Assembly (NCBI GenBank): GCA_025356695.1
Contig: JANXSE010000259.1
Location: 1-21,164 of the forward strand
DNA from: Betaproteobacteria bacterium
Lineage (GTDB): Bacteria > Pseudomonadota > Gammaproteobacteria > Burkholderiales > SG8-41
Length of the DNA stretch: 21,164 bases
Direction of reading: 5' to 3'
Positions 10,698-19,966 of the stretch are shown here, one piece after another; the stretch's first letter is position 1, and every line of letters starts with the position of its first letter. The notes beneath the pieces were generated by a model that made no database searches, had not been told where the DNA came from, and saw only the letters and a list, made by a program, of their open reading frames with translations. The position numbers and the translations under genes were made by a program.

Positions 10698-11017
10698 GGG
10701 GATAGGCCGCTTATGCTGGTTGCGCTTTGTATGCGAGGGGGAGTTCGGCGTCAGTTCGGCGTAAATGCGCGCCGGAAACCGCAAAGTTTAAGGCGTTTGG
10801 ACGGATGCGGCAAACCGGCCGCGGCCATGTCGCGGCAGCGCCGCGGCGTTCACGTCGCAGTAACCGTGACGCAGGGTTTTCAGTATGCTAATTTACGTAT
10901 ACCAGAATAGCCCAATATTCTAGTGCGCCGGGGTGATTCGCTGTTTAATGACGCCCAAAGCCGCTTGCGCCGGAACCCCGTTTGAGGGCGGCCGCCGGTG
11001 CATACAGAGGAGCAGGC
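10698..11017. promoter_or_regulatory. divergent promoter region between the HisD-family and selenoprotein operons
   Basis: This 320-bp non-coding stretch separates two divergent operons. An AT-rich island at about 10880-10925 within GC-rich DNA is the likely regulatory core. It holds GTAT...ATAC ends at 10883-10902 and the dyad AGAATA-N6-TATTCT at 10904-10921. No confident -35/-10 pair can be called. The LysR regulator encoded two genes downstream (12744) is the obvious candidate binder (inference). Confidence 0.5.
10904..10921. promoter_or_regulatory. perfect 6-bp dyad, candidate operator
   Basis: AGAATA, six spacer bases GCCCAA, then TATTCT: an interrupted palindrome with AT-rich ends in the middle of the divergent intergenic region. 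LysR-type regulators bind such dyads (T-N11-A-like). Assignment to the local CysB-like regulator is inference. Confidence 0.4.
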
Positions 11018-12712
11018 ATGAATCAGAAAGTCGGTGTCATCAGTCCGGAAGGGTTGCCGCTGGGCGGCTCTAGAAACATCAGCGCGCATTTAGACACGCT
11101 CGAGGGCAAGACCATCGGCGAGGTTTACAACAACCACTTCAAGGGCGAGTTGATGTTTCACACCTATCGCCGCCTTTTCAAGGAAAAATATCCCGGCGTA
11201 AAAATCATCCCCTACACCGAGTTTCCGATCGTCTACGTCGGCGGCGATCCCGCCACGCAGCGCAAGATCGCACAGCAGGTCGCCGCGCTGGCGAAGGAAC
11301 GCGGCTGCGACGCGCTGATCACCGGCAACGGTGGATGAGGCACCTGCACACCGGCCTCGGCGAGGCCGGCGATTGAAGCCGAAAAACTCGGCATCCCCAG
11401 CGTAGTCATCACCACCACCGGCTTCACCGCCATTGCGAAAGCGGTGGCGAAGGCCGAGGGCATGTCCGGTATGCGTGTCGGCGAATATCCCGGCGCGGTC
11501 GGCGTGCATGCCGATGAACTCGTCGTCAAAAACGTCGAGGACGTTTTGTTCGGCCGCATCGTCGATTGCCTGACCAGACCGGCGGCCGGCGAGGCTGCGA
11601 AATCGGCCGCCGCCAGACCCGCCGACGCCATCATTTACGAAGGCAGCTTCGAAGAGATCAACGCGCACTTCCGCGCGCAGCAGTGGACCGATGAACTGCC
11701 GATCATTCCGCCCACGCGCGAACGCGTCGAGGCGTTTCTCAAATACACCGATCGCAAGCCGCACGAGCGCATCGCCGTGCTGCCGCAGGCCAATCTCGAA
11801 GCGGTGCCGTGGAATATCGCCGCCAACGCGGTAATGGCCGGTTGCAGCCCTGAATGCATGCCACTGCTGATCGCGGCGGTCGAAGCACTGGCCGACAACA
11901 CTTACAACCTCAGCAACATCGGCACCACTTGGGGCGTGCTGCCCTTCTTACTGATCAACGGGCCGGCGATCCAAAAGATGGGGGTCGAGAACGGTGGGCA
12001 GATGATTTCGAAGGGCGCCAATCCGTCGATCGGCCGCGCGTTGGGGCTCATCATCAAGAACATCGCCGGCTACAAGCTCGGCCGCAACTACATGGGCACC
12101 TTCGGTTACCCGATGAATTTCACCATCGCGGAAAACGAAGCCGAGTGCCCGTGGGAGCCCTACCACGTCGAGCATGGCTTCAAAAAAGAAGACAGCACCG
12201 TTACCGCCTGCGCGACGGTGACCTGGGGCTGGCCGCCGGCGATCTACGGCACTGCCGACAAAACCGCGGCGCAGACGGCGCTGGAGTTTCTCAGCATCGA
12301 ACTGACGAAGAAGCCCTGCCTCGCACGGCTGGCCGAACGCGGGCCGAAGGGCTTTCGCAACATGATCACCATCATGATCGCGCCGCCGGTGGCGAAGTCG
12401 CTGGCTGAAGAGGGTTACAGCAAGGACAAAATCCGCGAATACCTCTACGAGCATGCGCGCGTGCCGTTCCGCGAACTCGAATTCCTGCTCAAGTACGGGC
12501 ATTCGGAGGCGTTCACCATCCGCGATGCGGTCGAGCGCGGCATTTATCCGGAAGAGTATCTGGTGAAAGAGGACGAGCTGGTGCGCATCCTGCCGGGCCC
12601 CGAGGTGATCAATCTCGTGGTGTGCGGTGATCCGCACCGCAACCGCGTGATGGTGCTGTGGGGCGGTTATGTGAATCCGGTGACCAAAAAAATGGCGTTC
12701 CCGGCGCGTTGA
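11018..12712 (+). CDS. putative selenoprotein: UGSC-type domain with in-frame UGA, fused to a large C-terminal domain
   Basis: Read with TGA 11336-11338 as selenocysteine, this is one 564-residue protein with Sec at 107. The ATG follows AGAGGAG (11005-11011). Frame and conservation-like style continue unbroken through the TGA: DALITGNGG-U-GTCTPASARP, then EKLGIPSVVITTTGF. This matches the family I recall as 'UGSC family (seleno)protein', which has U or C in a [U/C]-G-[S/T]-C motif; here the motif is U107-G-T-C110, a likely selenenylsulfide redox pair. Residues 1-185 form this domain; an Ala-rich linker follows to about 203. The remaining ~360 residues (DELPIIPPTRERVEAFL, C276/C280 in AGCSPEC, IAENEAECPWEP) form an uncharacterised domain I have seen in proteins of this family. 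It heads the operon before the LysR gene. The reaction is unknown. The alternative is a nonsense-disrupted pseudogene. Confidence 0.85.
11336..11338 (+). other. recoded UGA codon (selenocysteine 107)
   Basis: In-frame TGA within GGT-GGA-TGA-GGC-ACC-TGC. No other stop occurs between 11018 and the terminal TGA at 12710-12712. The downstream Cys codon (TGC, residue 110) completes a U-x-x-C redox motif. Confidence 0.82.
11339..11371 (+). promoter_or_regulatory. candidate bacterial SECIS element
   Basis: Twelve bases after the UGA comes a perfect stem, CCGGCCTC (11351-11358), loop GGC (11359-11361), GAGGCCGG (11362-11369). The guanines of the apical loop lie about 21-22 nt from the UGA, inside the distance known for SelB-recruiting bacterial SECIS hairpins, which commonly carry G in a small apical loop. 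The hairpin is within coding sequence, as bacterial SECIS elements are. Confidence 0.7.
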
Positions 12713-12743: not shown

Positions 12744-13730
12744 ATGAAACTGTCCGGACTCAAATGCATCCTCGAAGTGCACCGCTGCGGCAACCATATT
12801 TCCGCGGCGGCCGAGGCGCTGCACACCTCGCAGCCCGGCATCAGCAAACAGATCCAGCTGCTCGAAGCGGAGATCGGTTTTCCGGTGTTCCAGCGCAAAC
12901 GCAACCGCGTGGTCGGCCTCACCGAGCCGGGGCGCGAGGTGATCGAGATCGCGCGGCGCATACTCAACGATGTCGACAGCCTGCAAACCCTGCGTGACGA
13001 TTACCTCGACCGCGCGGAGGGCCGCCTCACCATCGCCACCACCCACACCTATGCGCGCTATGTGCTGCCGAAGGTGGTCGAGCGCTTTATCAAACAATAT
13101 CCGGACGTGCGCCTCAGCCTGCAACAGGGCAACCCGACGCAGATCTGCGAGGCGGTCGAAGCGGGCGAAGCGGATATCGCCGTCGGCACCGAGACCATGC
13201 GCCCCTTTCCGAACCTCGGCATGCTGCCGTGTTTTCCGGTGGCGCGCAGCGTCATCGCGAAGAAGGGGCACGCCATTCTGCGCGCGAAGAAGCTGACGCT
13301 GCAGGAAATCGCGCGCTATCCGATCATCTCGCATGACCGCGTGCGCAGCGGCAGCTGGAAGGTGATGGACGCGTTTCACAAACATGGCATCGAGCCCAAC
13401 GTGATTTTCGGCGCGGTCGATGCCGATGTCTGCAAGACCTACGTCGAGCTCGGGCTTGGCATCGCGATTCTGGCGACGGTTGCGGTCGATCCGAAACACG
13501 ACCATGATCTGCGCGCGCGCGATGTCAGCCATCTGTTCGAATCGAGCACGACCTATGTGTCGTTGCGGCGGAACACTTATTTGCGGCGTTATGTCAGCCA
13601 CTTCATCGGCCTGCTGGCGCCGGAACTGACACCCGAGGTCATCAGGGGCGAATTGCGCCGGCAGCCGGCACCGGCAAAAGCGCCGTCAGCAAAAACTGCG
13701 CGCGCGAAGGCGGCGGGCGGCGAACGTTAA
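12744..13730 (+). CDS. LysR-family transcriptional regulator, CysB/Cbl-like
   Basis: A 328-residue regulator. The N-terminal winged helix-turn-helix (1-60) reads MKLSGLKCILEV...SAAAEALHTSQPGISKQIQLLE, very close to the CysB/Cbl subgroup. The effector-binding domain (about 93-300) starts GRLTIATTHTYARYVLPKV. In CysB the equivalent residues T100, T102 and Q103 take part in ligand binding as I recall; here T100 and T102 are kept but Tyr replaces Gln 103, so the ligand may not be sulfate or O-acetylserine-related. An Ala/Lys-rich tail of about 25 residues follows. It lies within the operon, 31 nt after the selenoprotein gene and 19 nt before the Bug gene, and probably controls the divergent promoter region at 10698-11017. 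Confidence 0.93.
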   Translation: MKLSGLKCILEVHRCGNHISAAAEALHTSQPGISKQIQLLEAEIGFPVFQRKRNRVVGLTEPGREVIEIARRILNDVDSLQTLRDDYLDRAEGRLTIATTHTYARYVLPKVVERFIKQYPDVRLSLQQGNPTQICEAVEAGEADIAVGTETMRPFPNLGMLPCFPVARSVIAKKGHAILRAKKLTLQEIARYPIISHDRVRSGSWKVMDAFHKHGIEPNVIFGAVDADVCKTYVELGLGIAILATVAVDPKHDHDLRARDVSHLFESSTTYVSLRRNTYLRRYVSHFIGLLAPELTPEVIRGELRRQPAPAKAPSAKTARAKAAGGER

Positions 13731-13749: not shown

Positions 13750-14733
13750 ATGAAATTGATCGCACGCACGCTGGCCGCCGCGGCCGGCATGACGCTGGCC
13801 ATTGCGGCGCCGGCGCAGCAGACGGACTATCCGAACAAACCGGTGCGCATCGTTTATCCGTTCGCCGCAGGCGGCGGCGGTGATCTGGTGTCGCGCACGC
13901 TGGCGGCGGAACTGAGCCGCGACCTGAAGGAAACCTTCATCATCGACAACCGCACCGGCGGCAACGGCAACATCGGCACCGACATCGTCGCGCGCGCCAC
14001 GCCCGACGGCTACACGCTGCTGGTGACGACCAATGCGACCATCGTCATCAACCCGCAGCTCTTCAAGAAAGTCGTGACCTACGATCCGGTGAAGGATTTC
14101 TCGCCGATCAGTCTGGTCGCTTCGCAGCCCTTTGTGCTGGTGCTGCATCCGTCGGTGCCGGCGAAAACGGTACCGGAACTGATCGCGCTGGCGAAGGCCA
14201 AGCCGGGCACGCTCAACTACGGTTCGTCGGGTTCCGGCGGCGGCGCGCATCTGGCCGGTGAAATGCTGAAGACCTTTGCGCATATCGACATCACGCACAT
14301 TCCGTTCAAGGGCAGCAACCCGGCGCTGATTGCGCTGACCGGCGGGCAGATCCAGTTCATGTTCGTCGCCGCACTCGCCGCGATGCCGCTGGTGGAGCAG
14401 GGACGCTTGCGCGCGATTGCGGTGTCCACCGGCAAACGCAGCCCGGCGCTGCCGACGCTGCCGGCGGTCGCCGAGTTCCCGGGTCTCGAAACCTTCCAAT
14501 CCGATCTCTGGTATGGTTTCCTCGCGCCGGCGAAAACGCCGCAGACCATCATCGACAAACTCAACGCCGCAACCAAAGCGGCGGTGCAGCGCGCCGAGGT
14601 GAAAGCGCGCATCGAACCGAGCGGCACCGTGCTGATCGGCAACTCGCCCAAAGAGTTTGCGCAAATCATTCGCGACGATCTGGCGCGTTGGGGCAAGGTC
14701 ATCACGCTGGCCAAAGTGACGCCGGAGTATTGA
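13750..14733 (+). CDS. Bug/TctC-family periplasmic solute-binding protein (Bug 1)
   Basis: A 327-residue extracytoplasmic binding protein of the tripartite tricarboxylate transporter/Bug family. A signal peptide covers about residues 1-22 (AIAAPA before QQTDYPNKPVR). Family signatures are VRIVYPFAAGGGGDLVSR (about 32-49), DNRTGGNGNIGTDIVARATPDGYTLL and the mid-region VPAKTVPELIALAKAKPGTLNYGSSG. Such proteins bind organic acids or related small molecules in the periplasm. No membrane subunits (TctA/TctB) are in the window, so it may use a distant permease or act as a sensor. AGGAG lies 9 nt before the ATG. It is coupled in the operon to the LysR gene and the first MmgE/PrpD gene. Confidence 0.94.
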   Translation: MKLIARTLAAAAGMTLAIAAPAQQTDYPNKPVRIVYPFAAGGGGDLVSRTLAAELSRDLKETFIIDNRTGGNGNIGTDIVARATPDGYTLLVTTNATIVINPQLFKKVVTYDPVKDFSPISLVASQPFVLVLHPSVPAKTVPELIALAKAKPGTLNYGSSGSGGGAHLAGEMLKTFAHIDITHIPFKGSNPALIALTGGQIQFMFVAALAAMPLVEQGRLRAIAVSTGKRSPALPTLPAVAEFPGLETFQSDLWYGFLAPAKTPQTIIDKLNAATKAAVQRAEVKARIEPSGTVLIGNSPKEFAQIIRDDLARWGKVITLAKVTPEY

Positions 14734-14749
14734 TGCACGGAGACGTCAA

Positions 14750-16114
14750 TTGAACAACGAAGCGGCTTGCTGGGACGCCACCGTTGAAGGCCTGCTCGCC
14801 TACGCGCAGCGTGTGCGCTACGACGCGTTGTCGCAGACCGTGGTGCACGAAGCAAAGCGCCGCGTCATCGACACCTTTGCCAGTGCGCTGGGTGCGTATG
14901 ACGAACCGGTCAGTGCGATGTCGCGCGCGCTGGCGGCGCGCACGCGTTCGGACCAGACCGCGCGCGTCTGGGGCAGCGACATCGTCACCACGCCGGAACT
15001 GGCCGCCTTCGCCAACGGCGTGATGGTGCGTTCGCTCGATGTCAGCGACACCTATCTTGGCCGCAGCCGCGGACATCCGAGCGATATGACACCGGGCCTC
15101 GTCGCGCTGGCGGAGATCATGCACGCCGACGGCAAGGCGTTGCTTGCAGCGATCTCGCTCGCCTATGACGTCTATTGCAGCTTCTGCAAGGCGGTTGATG
15201 TCAACGCGAAAGGCTGGGACCAGCCGCTGTATACCGTGCTCGGTTGCGCGCTGGGGGCGGCAAAGTTGTTGCAGCTCAATGCCGATGCCACCGGTCATGC
15301 GCTGTCGCTGGCGTTGACGCCGAATATGGCGCTGGCGCAGGCGCGTCGCGGCAGTCTGTCGAGCTGGAAGGGCTGCGCAGGGGCCAACGCGACGCGCAAT
15401 GCGGTGTTTGCCGCACTGCTGGCGAAAGAAGGGTTTACCGGGCCGACCGCGGTGTTCGACGGTAGCGGTGGTTTGTGGGAGGCGATCGGCCGCTGTGAAT
15501 GGCCGTTGCCTGACGCGCCGATGATCGGCCAGACGCATACGAAGAGCCTGCCGGTCTGTTATCACGGCCAGTCGGCAGTGCTCGCCGCACTCGAATTGCG
15601 CGATCGCGTGAAGATCGACGAGATTGCGGAAATCAGGGCCGATGTTTACGCCACGGCGGTGTTCATGATGGGCGCTGATGCTTCGCGCTGGGCGCCGGCC
15701 ACGCGTGAAACGGCGGATCACAGCCTGCCGTACTGCATTGCCATTGCGTTGATCGACGGCGCGGTGACGCGCGATTCGTTTGCCGAGGCGCGCCTCGGCG
15801 ATCCGGCGGTCGCTGCATTGATGCAGAAAGTGAAAGTGATGGAAGACCCGGCCCTGTCGGCGCGATATCCGGAGGGCGCACCGGGACGCGTTACCATCCG
15901 CCTGCAGTCGGGTAAGACGCAGGTGGTCGAAATCATCTATCCGCGCGGTCACGAAAAAAGTCCGATGAGCGACGGTGAGATCGAACAGAAATTCCACACG
16001 ATGTGTGCGGGGCGTCTCGATGCGGCGCGGCGCGCTGCGGCGCTGGTGGCGCTGTGGCGTCTTGAGAATGTGCGCGACGCCGGCGAGATCACCGCATTGT
16101 TTGCCGTGGCATGA
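14750..16114 (+). CDS. MmgE/PrpD family protein 1 (atypical active site)
   Basis: A 454-residue member of the MmgE/PrpD family, which includes 2-methylcitrate dehydratase, cis-aconitate decarboxylase and iminodisuccinate epimerase. Aligned by eye with cis-aconitate decarboxylase, LDVSDTY...GHPSD gives D97/D100 and H109; K207 sits in SSWKGCAGANA; K265 and H272 in TKSLPVCYHGQ. The His expected around 155-160 is missing (GWDQPLY). The late motif TRETADHSLPYC is typical. The start is TTG at 14750, supported by GGAGA six bases upstream. An ATG at 14733 opens only a six-codon frame. It probably dehydrates, decarboxylates or epimerises a polycarboxylate; the substrate is unknown. Confidence 0.9.
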   Translation: MNNEAACWDATVEGLLAYAQRVRYDALSQTVVHEAKRRVIDTFASALGAYDEPVSAMSRALAARTRSDQTARVWGSDIVTTPELAAFANGVMVRSLDVSDTYLGRSRGHPSDMTPGLVALAEIMHADGKALLAAISLAYDVYCSFCKAVDVNAKGWDQPLYTVLGCALGAAKLLQLNADATGHALSLALTPNMALAQARRGSLSSWKGCAGANATRNAVFAALLAKEGFTGPTAVFDGSGGLWEAIGRCEWPLPDAPMIGQTHTKSLPVCYHGQSAVLAALELRDRVKIDEIAEIRADVYATAVFMMGADASRWAPATRETADHSLPYCIAIALIDGAVTRDSFAEARLGDPAVAALMQKVKVMEDPALSARYPEGAPGRVTIRLQSGKTQVVEIIYPRGHEKSPMSDGEIEQKFHTMCAGRLDAARRAAALVALWRLENVRDAGEITALFAVA

Positions 16115-16153
16115 TCAATAAAAAAACTGAAACGGGTCAGAGGAGAAATACAG

Positions 16154-17563
16154 GTGTCGACTGAAAAATCACTGCTGCCTGGCGCCACGCGCGATCTGGC
16201 GGCGTTCGCATCGAATCTGCAATACACCGCCATACCGCGCGAGGCGATCGAACGCATGAAGCTCTCGGTGCTCGACAGCATCGGCTGCTGCATCTTCGGC
16301 GCGACGCTGCCGTGGACGCGCAAGGTCGCCACGCTGGCGAAGGCCGAAGGCGCAGCCCCCGTGGCCTCGTTGACGGGCATGGGTGAGAAGACCTCGATCG
16401 CGCTCGCGGTGCTGGTCAACGGCACCGGCGGTCACGCCTTCGAACTCGACGACATCCACAAGGAATCGATCGTGCACGCCGGCTCGATCGCGACACCGAT
16501 TGCGTTTGCCTTTGCCGAGCAGCAGGGCGGCGCGCCGGGCAAAGACATCATCACGGCGATGATTGCGGGCTATGAAGTCGGTCACCGCGTTGGCAATGCG
16601 GCGACCATGAGTTTGTTCTTCCGCGGCTTTCATCCGCAGGGCACCTCGGGCACTTTTGTCGCGGCGGCCACTGCGGCGCGCGCGCTTGGGCTCGATGCGG
16701 CGCGTTTTCAGCATGCGCTGGGCATCTGCGGTTCGCAGGCCGGCGGCCTGATGGCGGCACAGGAAGGTGCGATGGTGAAACGCTTTCACAGCGGGCGCGC
16801 GGCGCAAAGCGGTGTCTATTCGGCGCTGCTGGCGCGCGACGATTTCACCGGTATCAGCGATGCGCTTGAAGCCGGCTACGGCGGTTATCTCAGCAGTTAT
16901 TCCGACAAGCCGGCGCCGGCGCGTTTGACCGACGGTCTTGGCACGACGTGGGAGACGCTCAACGTCGGCTACAAGCCGCACGCGAGTGTGACCAGCATCC
17001 ACACCGCGCTAGACGGGCTGGGCGATATCCTGCGCGAAAACAGGATCACCGCCGACGACGTGGCGAAGGTGGCAGTGGGCCTCTCGCCGATGACGCATGT
17101 GCATTGCGCCTGGGAATACAAGGCGCAGGGTGTGACCGCCGCGCAGATGAACCTGTATTACGGGCTTGCCGTCATTGCCATCGACGATATGGCATTTACC
17201 GACCAGTACCGTGAAGAGCGCCTGCGGGACCCGCGCATCCTCGATTTCATTACGCGCATCACGGCCACCGTCGACGCCGAAATCGAAACAATGGGCGCGC
17301 CGTTCCGTCATGCCGCGCGCGTCAAGGTGACCACACGCGACGGCCGCAGTTTCGAGAAGCTGATTCTGCATCGGCGCGGCAGCCCCGAGACGCCGCTGAC
17401 GCCTGCGGACATCGAATACAAATTCCGCCACGTCGTGCGTTCGTGCATTCCCGAAGATCGCATGTTGCGCATCATGGATCTCGTGCGCGGCCTCGAAACA
17501 CTCGATAACACCGGCGAGCTGTTGCAGCTCGTCGCCGCGCCTGTTCACTTAAATCAGCACTGA
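16154..17563 (+). CDS. MmgE/PrpD family protein 2
   Basis: A 469-residue MmgE/PrpD protein with the complete set of residues I would expect: ELDDIHKESIVHAGS (D99/D100, H108), GFHPQGT (H160), MVKRFHSGRAAQSG (K209), and YKPHASVTSIHTALD (K274, H283). It lacks the ADHSLPY motif of its neighbours and has WEYKAQGVTAAQMNLYYGLAVI instead, placing it in another subfamily. The GTG start at 16154 is set by AGAGGAGA at 16139-16146. It is second of three tandem family members and should act cytosolically on a hydroxy- or unsaturated di/tricarboxylate. Identity of the reaction is not readable from sequence. Confidence 0.91.
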   Translation: MSTEKSLLPGATRDLAAFASNLQYTAIPREAIERMKLSVLDSIGCCIFGATLPWTRKVATLAKAEGAAPVASLTGMGEKTSIALAVLVNGTGGHAFELDDIHKESIVHAGSIATPIAFAFAEQQGGAPGKDIITAMIAGYEVGHRVGNAATMSLFFRGFHPQGTSGTFVAAATAARALGLDAARFQHALGICGSQAGGLMAAQEGAMVKRFHSGRAAQSGVYSALLARDDFTGISDALEAGYGGYLSSYSDKPAPARLTDGLGTTWETLNVGYKPHASVTSIHTALDGLGDILRENRITADDVAKVAVGLSPMTHVHCAWEYKAQGVTAAQMNLYYGLAVIAIDDMAFTDQYREERLRDPRILDFITRITATVDAEIETMGAPFRHAARVKVTTRDGRSFEKLILHRRGSPETPLTPADIEYKFRHVVRSCIPEDRMLRIMDLVRGLETLDNTGELLQLVAAPVHLNQH

Positions 17564-17579
17564 AAGCGAAAGCACCGTC

Positions 17580-18983
17580 ATGTCAAAAAAAGCCGCATCT
17601 GCCAATTCAGCAAATACGCTCGCCGTCAAACTGGCCGAGCACCACGCCAAACTGTCGTACCGCCAGATCCCCGAGGCCGGGCGGCACGCCATGAAGCGCC
17701 TGCTGCTCGATTACATCGGCGTTGCGATTGCCGGCAGCCAGAGCGAGAGCGGCGTCATCGCGCGCGAATTCGCGGCGCTGCAGGGCAAGGCGGCCGAAGC
17801 GACATTGATCGGCGGCAGCGGGCGCGTACCGATGGCGGCGGCGGCGTTTGCCAATGCGATCTCCTGTCACAGTATCGAACTCGACGATATCGATGTGCTG
17901 GCGCTGTTTCATTTCAGTCCACCGGTGTTCTCGCCGGCGCTGGCGGTCGGTGAAGCGGTCGGTGCCAGCGGCAAGGATCTGATCACCGCGCTCGCCGCCG
18001 GCTGTGAGGTGATGGAACGCGTCAGCCAGGCGGCGAACAACAATCTGCGCAACCGCGCCTTTCACACCACGCCGACCTGCGGCGTATTCGGTGCGACGGT
18101 GGCGGCCGGCAAACTGCTGAAACTGACACCGGCCAAACTGACCTCGGCCTTCGGGTTGGCCGGCGCGCAGGCGTCGGGCCTGATGGAGATGTACGGCCCG
18201 TCGATGCAGAAGCGTTTCAATCCGGGCCCGGCTGCGCGCAACGGCGTCACCGCTGCGCATATCGCCAGCCTCGGTTTCACCGGTGCCGATACCATCTTCG
18301 AAGGTGAACGCGGGTTTCTGCGCGCCTTCGCCGGTCGCGAGGGCGCCGGCGCCGAAATCATCCGCGATCTCGACAAGCCGTTCGAGCTGCGCATCGAGTT
18401 CAAGCCGTACTCCTGCGCGCGGCCGATCCACAACGCGATCGATTGCGCGCTCGAGATCAAACAAAAACACGCGCCTGCGCTCGATAAAATCCGCAGCATC
18501 GTGGTCAAACGGCATCCCGACTGGGCGCATTATCATCTGAACATGGCGCCGCGCACTTATCACGAGGCGCAGGTCAGCCTGCCGTATTCGGTGGCGGTGG
18601 CTCTGATCGAAGGCAAGGCGCTGCTCGCGCAGTACACCAACAGCAAGCTCGGCAACCGGGAGATTCGCCGCTTGATGGATCTGACGCACATTGAAACCGA
18701 TGCGCGCCTGCCGCGCGGCGTGTCCTGTCATACGACCATGACCATGCAATCGGGCGAGAAGTACGTGTCGCAGGTCGATTTTCCGAAAGGCTCGATCGAA
18801 AACCCGATGAGCGACGACGAGTTGCGCGGCAAGTTCGAAAGCCTGGCCGTGCCGGTGATCGGCGAAATGCGTGCCGCGCAGATCTGCGATGTGGTATCGC
18901 GCATCGAGCGCTGCGCCAACGTCGGCGAGTTGATGCGGCTGACGGTCGCGCCGGCGCGCAAGCCGGCACACCGCAAGCGCTGA
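17580..18983 (+). CDS. MmgE/PrpD family protein 3
   Basis: A 467-residue MmgE/PrpD protein, clearly diverged from the two before it. Expected residues are present: IELDDIDVLALFHFSPP (D102/D103, H111), AFHTTPT (H162), MQKRFNPGPAARNG (K211), and FKPYSCARPIHNAID (K275, H284). The late motif reads RTYHEAQVSLPYSVAVALIEG. A short basic C-terminal tail follows (RKPAHRKR). The start codon ATG lies 17 nt after the preceding stop with only a weak ribosome-binding site, suggesting coupling. Three consecutive members of this family with different subfamily marks suggest successive or alternative steps on related acids rather than recent duplication. Confidence 0.91.
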   Translation: MSKKAASANSANTLAVKLAEHHAKLSYRQIPEAGRHAMKRLLLDYIGVAIAGSQSESGVIAREFAALQGKAAEATLIGGSGRVPMAAAAFANAISCHSIELDDIDVLALFHFSPPVFSPALAVGEAVGASGKDLITALAAGCEVMERVSQAANNNLRNRAFHTTPTCGVFGATVAAGKLLKLTPAKLTSAFGLAGAQASGLMEMYGPSMQKRFNPGPAARNGVTAAHIASLGFTGADTIFEGERGFLRAFAGREGAGAEIIRDLDKPFELRIEFKPYSCARPIHNAIDCALEIKQKHAPALDKIRSIVVKRHPDWAHYHLNMAPRTYHEAQVSLPYSVAVALIEGKALLAQYTNSKLGNREIRRLMDLTHIETDARLPRGVSCHTTMTMQSGEKYVSQVDFPKGSIENPMSDDELRGKFESLAVPVIGEMRAAQICDVVSRIERCANVGELMRLTVAPARKPAHRKR

Positions 18984-18985
18984 AG

Positions 18986-19966
18986 ATGACGATGCACCGC
19001 ACCCCGGTTTGTGCCGCACTGGCGTTGTTCACGGCCTGCGGGTTTTCCGCCAGCAGCATGGCGCAGAATTATCCCGTGCGGCCGGTGCGTCTGGTGGTGC
19101 CTTATCCGCCGGGCGGCGCCACCGATTTCACCGCACGTGAAATCGCGCAGGCGCTCGCCGAATCGATGGGCCAGCAGTTTGTCGTCGATAACCGCAGCGG
19201 CGCGGCCGGCAGCATGGGCCACCACATCGTGGCGAAGGCGGCGCCGGACGGCTACACGCTGGTGGTCGGCACCTTCGGCGGTCTTGTCAGCGGCCCGGCG
19301 CTGCTGGGCGCGCAGATCCCGTACGATCCGGAGAAAGACTTTGCGCCGATCGGTCTGGTGGTGCACACGCCGTGGGCGCTGGTGGTCAATCCGAATGTGC
19401 CGGCGAAAAACGTCCGCGAGCTGATCGATATTGCCAAGGCGGCGCCGGGCAAATACAACTACGCCTCGACCGGCACCGGCACGCCCAACCATCTCGGCAT
19501 GGTGTTGCTGCTGGTGAACACCGGCATCAACATGCTGCATGTGCCGTACCGCAGCGCCGGGCAGATCACCGTCGACCTGATCAGCGGCCAGGTGCAGAGC
19601 GTGTTCTCTGGCGTGCCGCAGATATTGCCGCATGTGAAGACCGGGCGCTTGCGCGCGATCGGCGTCGGCCATCCAACACGATTGAACGCGCTGCCCGATG
19701 TGCAGGCGATCGCGGAAGTCATTTCCGGTTTCAACAACTCGGGTTATTACGGCCTGCTGGCGCCCTTGCACACGCCGCGCGCGCTGATCGAGCGCCTCAA
19801 TGCCGAATTGAAAAAAGCCTTCACTGCGCCGGAGATGGTGAGGCGGCTCGAAGGCAACGGTCTGGTGGCAACGACCGGCACGCCGCAGGAATTCGGCGCG
19901 CTGATCCACAAGGACCTCGTGTTGTGGCGCAAGGTCATCAAGACGGCGGGTGTGACGCCGGATTAA
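18986..19966 (+). CDS. Bug/TctC-family periplasmic solute-binding protein (Bug 2)
   Basis: A 326-residue Bug protein. The signal peptide is about residues 1-26 (ASSMA before QNYPVRPVR). Signatures are VRLVVPYPPGGATDFTAR, DNRSGAAGSMGHHIVAKAAPDGYTL and VPAKNVRELIDIAKAAPGKYNYAS. ATG 18986 is two bases after the preceding stop; an alternative ATG lies at 18992. It is quite different from Bug 1, so the two likely bind different ligands or one acts in signalling. It ends the seven-gene plus-strand run. No TctA/TctB is in the window. Confidence 0.93.
   Translation: MTMHRTPVCAALALFTACGFSASSMAQNYPVRPVRLVVPYPPGGATDFTAREIAQALAESMGQQFVVDNRSGAAGSMGHHIVAKAAPDGYTLVVGTFGGLVSGPALLGAQIPYDPEKDFAPIGLVVHTPWALVVNPNVPAKNVRELIDIAKAAPGKYNYASTGTGTPNHLGMVLLLVNTGINMLHVPYRSAGQITVDLISGQVQSVFSGVPQILPHVKTGRLRAIGVGHPTRLNALPDVQAIAEVISGFNNSGYYGLLAPLHTPRALIERLNAELKKAFTAPEMVRRLEGNGLVATTGTPQEFGALIHKDLVLWRKVIKTAGVTPD

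Follow-up and report, generated by a model that had tools for sequence, protein, structure and literature searches.

Proteins of the UGSC family have stood on selenoprotein lists since 2007–2008, with no function given in the sections of those reports available to us. UGSC selenoproteins, together with a fusion to an uncharacterised domain, were reported in 2008 in the Global Ocean Sampling study (PMC2398784), the accessible part of which calls the fold likely thioredoxin (Trx)-like; UGSC is also placed beside Trx-fold selenoproteins in the part of PMC13188914 available to us. In GrdB-type proteins, selenocysteine (Sec) and a second component are described as holding and attacking the substrate, a GrdB/GrdE-like pair has been proposed to break the C–F bond of fluoroacetate, and eight predicted grdB genes were counted in one Synergistota genome (PMC10838667, sections available). 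Here we describe a gene at positions 11018–12712 on the forward strand of a 21,164-nucleotide stretch of DNA (the window; contig JANXSE010000259.1 of assembly GCA_025356695.1, an uncultured betaproteobacterium). The gene very probably encodes a selenoprotein in which a UGSC domain and a partner domain of about 365 residues form one two-part enzyme. Compared by description, its architecture is probably the same as that of the UGSC/Unknown_1 fusion (PMC2398784, Fig. S1A), for which the available sections give neither a function nor a paralogue expansion.

A sequence-only reading of the window had proposed a single 564-residue frame with an in-frame TGA at 11336, and this was confirmed both by translation and by a Pfam profile that aligned across the TGA. 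The 565 codons of the complete gene yield 564 residues; codon 107 (11336–11338) is the sole TGA within it, and another TGA ends it at 12710–12712. A Shine-Dalgarno-like GAGGAG, read from the sequence, lies at 11007–11012 before the ATG at 11018. The predicted Sec codon is the first position of a U-G-T-C motif, the fourth position of which is Cys110 (11345–11347), invariant in alignments A1 and A4. From base composition, the chance of an open frame of 457 codons is about 7e-7; spurious long frames are common in GC-rich DNA, and the comparative evidence therefore outweighs this figure.

The UGSC domain (11060–11572) was matched by PF24696 over residues 15–185, a span that includes the TGA. The match scored 87.7 bits, where 25 is the gathering score, and the pieces on either side of the TGA scored 20.4 and 46.1 bits alone. 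The NCBIfam equivalog NF041046 reached 58.7 bits, below its curated cut-off of 125. The proposed UGSC label thus held for Pfam and failed at the NCBIfam cut-off. The motif shares with the PF24696/NF041046 family a Sec or Cys followed by G-x-C in the same place, as the proposed U/C-G-S-C signature demands, but its third residue is Thr and not Ser, and unlike that family the window protein is fused to the partner domain. By sequence, it is a divergent UGTC subfamily of UGSC and not the NF041046 equivalog.

Genome contigs were scanned for orthologues, giving 48 loci and 51 alignments that span residue 107. TGA was present at this residue in 50 of the 51, drawn from metagenome-assembled genomes (MAGs) of Betaproteobacteria and Chloroflexi. 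Twenty-four full-length orthologues were read through, a set that leaves out L022 (alignment broken in two), L027, which carries one extra stop, and loci cut by contig ends; in every one of the 24 the first stop was the TGA of codon 107. The second stop fell at codons 561–588 and was variously TGA (14), TAA (8) or TAG (2), showing that the terminal stops drift. A sequencing error at the TGA is unlikely, because separate assemblies at 93–69 % protein identity all keep it.

Database proteins gave a matching picture. A search with the UGSC-domain profile returned 2120 proteins, and the figures given here are from the best 120. At the Sec site, Cys was found in 49 of the 54 relatives of at least 140 aa (48 by script and P0212 by reading; the set includes P0211, a fused fragment of 329 aa), Trp, Leu, Arg and Gly occurred in one each, and P0220 was without the motif. 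Homologues thus mostly carried TGA or Cys at position 107, as had been anticipated. The 66 shorter, stand-alone relatives ended in ...MAD (63) or ...MGD (3), directly ahead of the Sec site. Whole-protein relatives (best 120 of 1837) were 417–491 aa long and covered 74–80 % of the query, and all nine truncated ones that were read begin past the TGA, bearing out the expectation that such genes would be broken up by gene callers.

A bacterial Sec insertion sequence (bSECIS)-like hairpin was found at 11351–11369 (forward strand), with an 8-bp stem CCGGCCUC/GAGGCCGG and an apical loop GGC beginning 20 nt past the UGA. It fits the bSECIS constraints as quoted in the available part of PMC13188914. 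Its folding z-score was −2.76 (60 nt, dinucleotide shuffles), and the 48 nt past the UGA folded at −20.5 kcal/mol (z −2.09 versus synonymous-codon shuffles). Over 85 sites the mean z against synonymous-codon shuffles was −1.15, compared with −0.58 to +0.36 for windows elsewhere; the +6 window likewise gave −1.15, but it covers hairpin sequence, as does part of the +24 window. An uninterrupted stem of at least 6 bp was present at 68 % of 81 unique sites versus 15 % of shuffles, and a strict bSECIS rule of stem, loop and spacing, leaving minimum free energy aside, held at 66 of the 81. Stems vary by subfamily, with GUCGUGG/CCACGAC and CCCGC/GCGGG found besides the pair seen here. In one register, 13 distinct sequences selected for at least six of the eight pairs showed three pairs changing on both sides, and none of 500 shuffles attained their covariation score; the innermost stem pair fails in eight of the 13.

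The Sec machinery was scored over curated cut-offs in the relatives' genomes and in 14 control genomes. Genes for selB (32/33 relatives versus 2/14 controls; in pieces in G009), selA (32/33 versus 1/14; absent from G028) and selD (32/34 versus 2/14; absent from G015 and G032) were found in nearly all relatives, as was tRNA-Sec (32/33 versus 5/14 at a lenient cut-off), which scored at least 66 bits in 31 genomes, 47.3 bits in G030 and gave no match in G026. The selD match carries its own TGA in 31 of the 32 genomes that have one. A UGSC match lies 215–307 bp from selA, pointing away from it, in at least 12 genomes, and in G001, among the closest relatives, UGSC, selA, selB, tRNA-Sec and a second UGSC gene lie inside 17.1 kb of one contig. 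The presence of selA, selB, selC and selD in the host itself is thus predicted from relatives only.

Some observations weigh against Sec decoding. The one exception among the 51 alignments, the L030 paralogue (30 % identity), has TCA without a Sec motif; the fused paralogue L149 (G003:C5:86313–87479, minus strand) has Met in place of Sec (DMGIC) with the Cys kept; 15 of the 81 sites fail the strict hairpin rule, mostly through a stem mismatch or a loop not starting with G; and the machinery evidence comes from relatives' genomes only, not the window's own. Nevertheless, comparison across relatives showed a Sec-decoding signature in a single frame with a conserved Sec/Cys site, and the TGA at 11336 is almost certainly decoded as selenocysteine.

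Genome-wide reassignment of TGA, for instance to Trp, in place of local Sec recoding would by itself be equally compatible with the open frame, but its likelihood is practically negligible, given that, of the 19 frames treated as genes in the window, nine, this one included, end in TGA, that relatives have Cys and not Trp at the site (49 and one of the 54 longer relatives), and that Sec machinery in relatives' genomes and a hairpin past the UGA are found.

It is also highly improbable that the TGA is an ordinary stop, either separating two adjacent genes or marking a pseudogene formed by nonsense mutation. Consistent with such a stop are the pieces produced by gene callers, noted above, and further stops in relatives, namely that of L027, TAA or TAG in one G059, two G003 and two G073 matches, and seven stand-alone matches that list two TGA codons, one possibly the terminal stop. 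However, relatives from 93 down to ~30 % identity keep the TGA, more than one phylum is represented among them, and one domain profile crosses the TGA. The first listed in-frame start past the TGA, GTG at 11444, has no Shine-Dalgarno-like sequence ahead of it. The 35 codons from the TGA to this next start (codons 108–142) would be untranslated were the TGA a stop, and compared with 25 orthologues they differ at rates of 0.109 in the first, 0.075 in the second and 0.429 in the third codon position, with 312 changed codons synonymous and 121 non-synonymous. This pattern of codon-level purifying selection indicates that the stretch after the TGA is translated.

The partner domain occupies residues 196–564 (11603–12709, forward strand) and is encoded in relatives by a separate gene adjoining stand-alone UGSC genes. 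It matched no Pfam or NCBIfam family above cut-off and had no clear match in the PDB. Within it, Cys276 (11843–11845) lies in an N-A-V-M-A-G-C motif and is invariant in A1 (25 sequences) and present in at least 90 % of A2. In G073, a partner-domain match lies at most 338 bp from 16 of 17 stand-alone UGSC genes (checked by hand), and in eight of these pairs the stop and start overlap by four bases (ATGA or GTGA). Fused and split forms coexist in G073 and in other genomes of its family. Sequence comparison thus showed both fused and split UGSC/partner architectures; the two parts are fused here and neighbouring genes elsewhere, and a single two-part enzyme is therefore implied. In three loci from Chloroflexi/Dehalococcoidia (L044–L046), a stand-alone UGSC gene sits between partner-domain genes, and the partner-domain copies of L045 and L046 are without the NAVMAGC cysteine.

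For the mechanism, the stem-loop past UGA 11336 would recruit SelB and Sec-tRNA, leading to insertion of Sec at residue 107. The UGSC domain would act together with the partner, whether fused as here or, as often in relatives, encoded by a neighbouring gene. The Sec selenolate and Cys110 (U-x-x-C) would be the catalytic pair, the partner domain would bind and activate the substrate, and paralogues may differ in substrate. By analogy, an organic acid bound in the partner domain would be the target of attack by the selenolate and Cys110, with a thiol donor then re-reducing the U-x-x-C pair. We tentatively suggest, again from the analogy, that the likeliest chemistry is reductive cleavage of carbon–heteroatom bonds in small organic acids, like that of GrdB/GrdE, PrdB/PrdA and the proposed FarB/FarE, although the odds are somewhat against it.

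The comparison with GrdB and PrdB (glycine, sarcosine, betaine and D-proline reductases) and FarB (fluoroacetate) rests on shared traits: the U-x-x-C sites line up, in curated profiles by coordinates, a Sec component works with a second component, and GrdB, too, has several paralogues in a single Synergistota genome (PMC10838667). The likeness proposed is in the way of working and not in family membership. Curated GrdB/PrdB profiles weakly matched the Sec region, the best E-value among 24 members being 5.4e-5 (GrdF), six members matched gly_red_sel_B at E ≤ 0.01, and Sec aligned with Sec in both UGSC–GrdB/PrdB alignments seen. The differences, which count against the comparison, are that the window protein falls far below the curated cut-offs (N-domain 17.3 versus 65.45 bits for TIGR01918 and 19.6 versus 300 bits for TIGR04483) and that the partner domain has no detectable similarity to a known family. 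On the same side, profile–profile comparison of UGSC with GrdB/PrdB gave a probability of 6 % and an E-value of 0.006, a UGSC hmmsearch against PrdB-like proteins was not significant (best E-value in reverse 0.002), and comparison of the partner domain with Pfam and NCBIfam brought up no family of the GrdE/PrdA type, no search having been aimed at GrdA/GrdC-type partners. Models of the GrdE/PrdA type were presumably present in the libraries searched.

Two other functions were considered for the selenoprotein. One, which we regard as improbable, is that it is an isomerase, lyase or racemase of organic acids that employs Sec as acid/base and not as redox nucleophile. The other, a possible if rather unlikely reading, is that it is a general thiol/disulfide or peroxide-handling oxidoreductase and not a substrate-specific carbon–heteroatom reductase. 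The U-x-x-C redox motif would suit this, as would the likely Trx-like fold and the listing with Trx-fold selenoproteins in the available sections of PMC2398784 and PMC13188914. Against this, AlphaFold2 modelled the N-domain with a Rossmann-like fold, for which PurE heads the VIA list, and the many paralogues, mostly with a partner domain, better suit substrate diversification than housekeeping redox. The structural matches listed, PurE, FtsZ and other chains, leave room for a thioredoxin-fold match beyond them.

Beyond this gene, comparison across genomes showed a large expansion of predicted UGSC paralogues in one betaproteobacterial family. All 74 genomes examined from the GTDB family of G006 matched the A1 profile at E ≤ 1e-20, some possibly through no more than the partner domain or a split pair; the A1 matches listed all contain TGA, two also TAG, and selA was present in 67 of the 74. 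Among 229 genomes drawn from the class, with at most six candidates scored per genome, three matched at E ≤ 1e-30: G006 itself (the starting genome), one TGA-containing match and one with the partner domain only. The number of TGA-containing UGSC genes was 18 in G001 (12 fused, six stand-alone), 21 in G003 (13 fused, eight stand-alone) and 52 in G073, a MAG of 5.7 Mb. The last figure comes close to the largest numbers in print for entire bacterial selenoproteomes, 57 and 63, the latter in Methylomirabilota and cited via a review (PMC13188914, part available). The UGSC family and its fusion to an uncharacterised domain are already in print; in a limited literature search, no paper on UGSC paralogue expansion or UGSC function was found. 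The scale of the expansion is easily missed because, in the database entries inspected, the protein is cut off at the Sec codon.

Two further observations were made in these genomes. Another selenoprotein family (L129–L147, e.g. L137 and L139), which resembles PrdB and carries a UPxC motif, occurs in 14 of 20 genomes searched, with three matches in G073. Several MAG records titled Bordetella parapertussis (L002, L006, L013, L015, L018 and others) have orthologues closest to uncultured betaproteobacteria and are probably mis-titled.

The genes following on the forward strand were examined for metabolic context. A CysB-family LysR regulator (12744–13730; 383.7 bits versus a curated cut-off of 402) begins 31 nt downstream, and such a gene also adjoins orthologues in L001, L002, L006, L014 and L037. 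CysB regulators respond to sulfur supply. Next lies a homologue of TctC (Bug-type) substrate-binding proteins (13750–14733), assigned by BLAST grouping with other TctC genes; a member of the same group at 18986–19966 is PF03401. Between them are three MmgE/PrpD-type genes (14750–18983), the first (14750–16114) with both Pfam domains and the other two (16154–17563 and 17580–18983) grouped with it by BLAST. Orthologue neighbourhoods elsewhere include enolase-superfamily, TauD, GMC and sulfopyruvate-decarboxylase-like genes. Two-gene sulfopyruvate/phosphonopyruvate-decarboxylase-like pairs with adjoining TauD-family genes were seen near UGSC orthologues at L015:2032–3164 and L024:829–1958 (minus strand). 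Histidinol-dehydrogenase relatives include sulfonate dehydrogenases. The neighbouring genes suggest organic-acid, perhaps organosulfur, catabolism. Proximity to TctC adds nothing to this, because TctC genes abound in G073: a first look gave 995 candidates in 5.7 Mb, and each of the 150 that were scored passed the cut-off, making at least 150 genes.

With these results the UGSC family gains a defined partner domain, a Rossmann-like N-domain model, a weak link to glycine and proline reductases and an expansion, and a concrete two-part enzyme is now open to testing. UGSC relatives form an unexpectedly large family in certain uncultured bacteria. It is conceivable, though doubtful, that UGSC and partner represent a large class of organic-acid reductases that depend on Sec and are specific for their substrates. 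These would combine a GrdB/PrdB-like selenol domain with a subunit whose fold is unrecognised and which activates the substrate, possibly via the near-invariant Cys276, and in one betaproteobacterial family they would have diversified to tens of paralogues in each genome. If so, they would constitute a modular selenium-based toolkit for breaking carbon–heteroatom bonds, and these TctC-rich uncultured betaproteobacteria would be among the richest selenoprotein users known.
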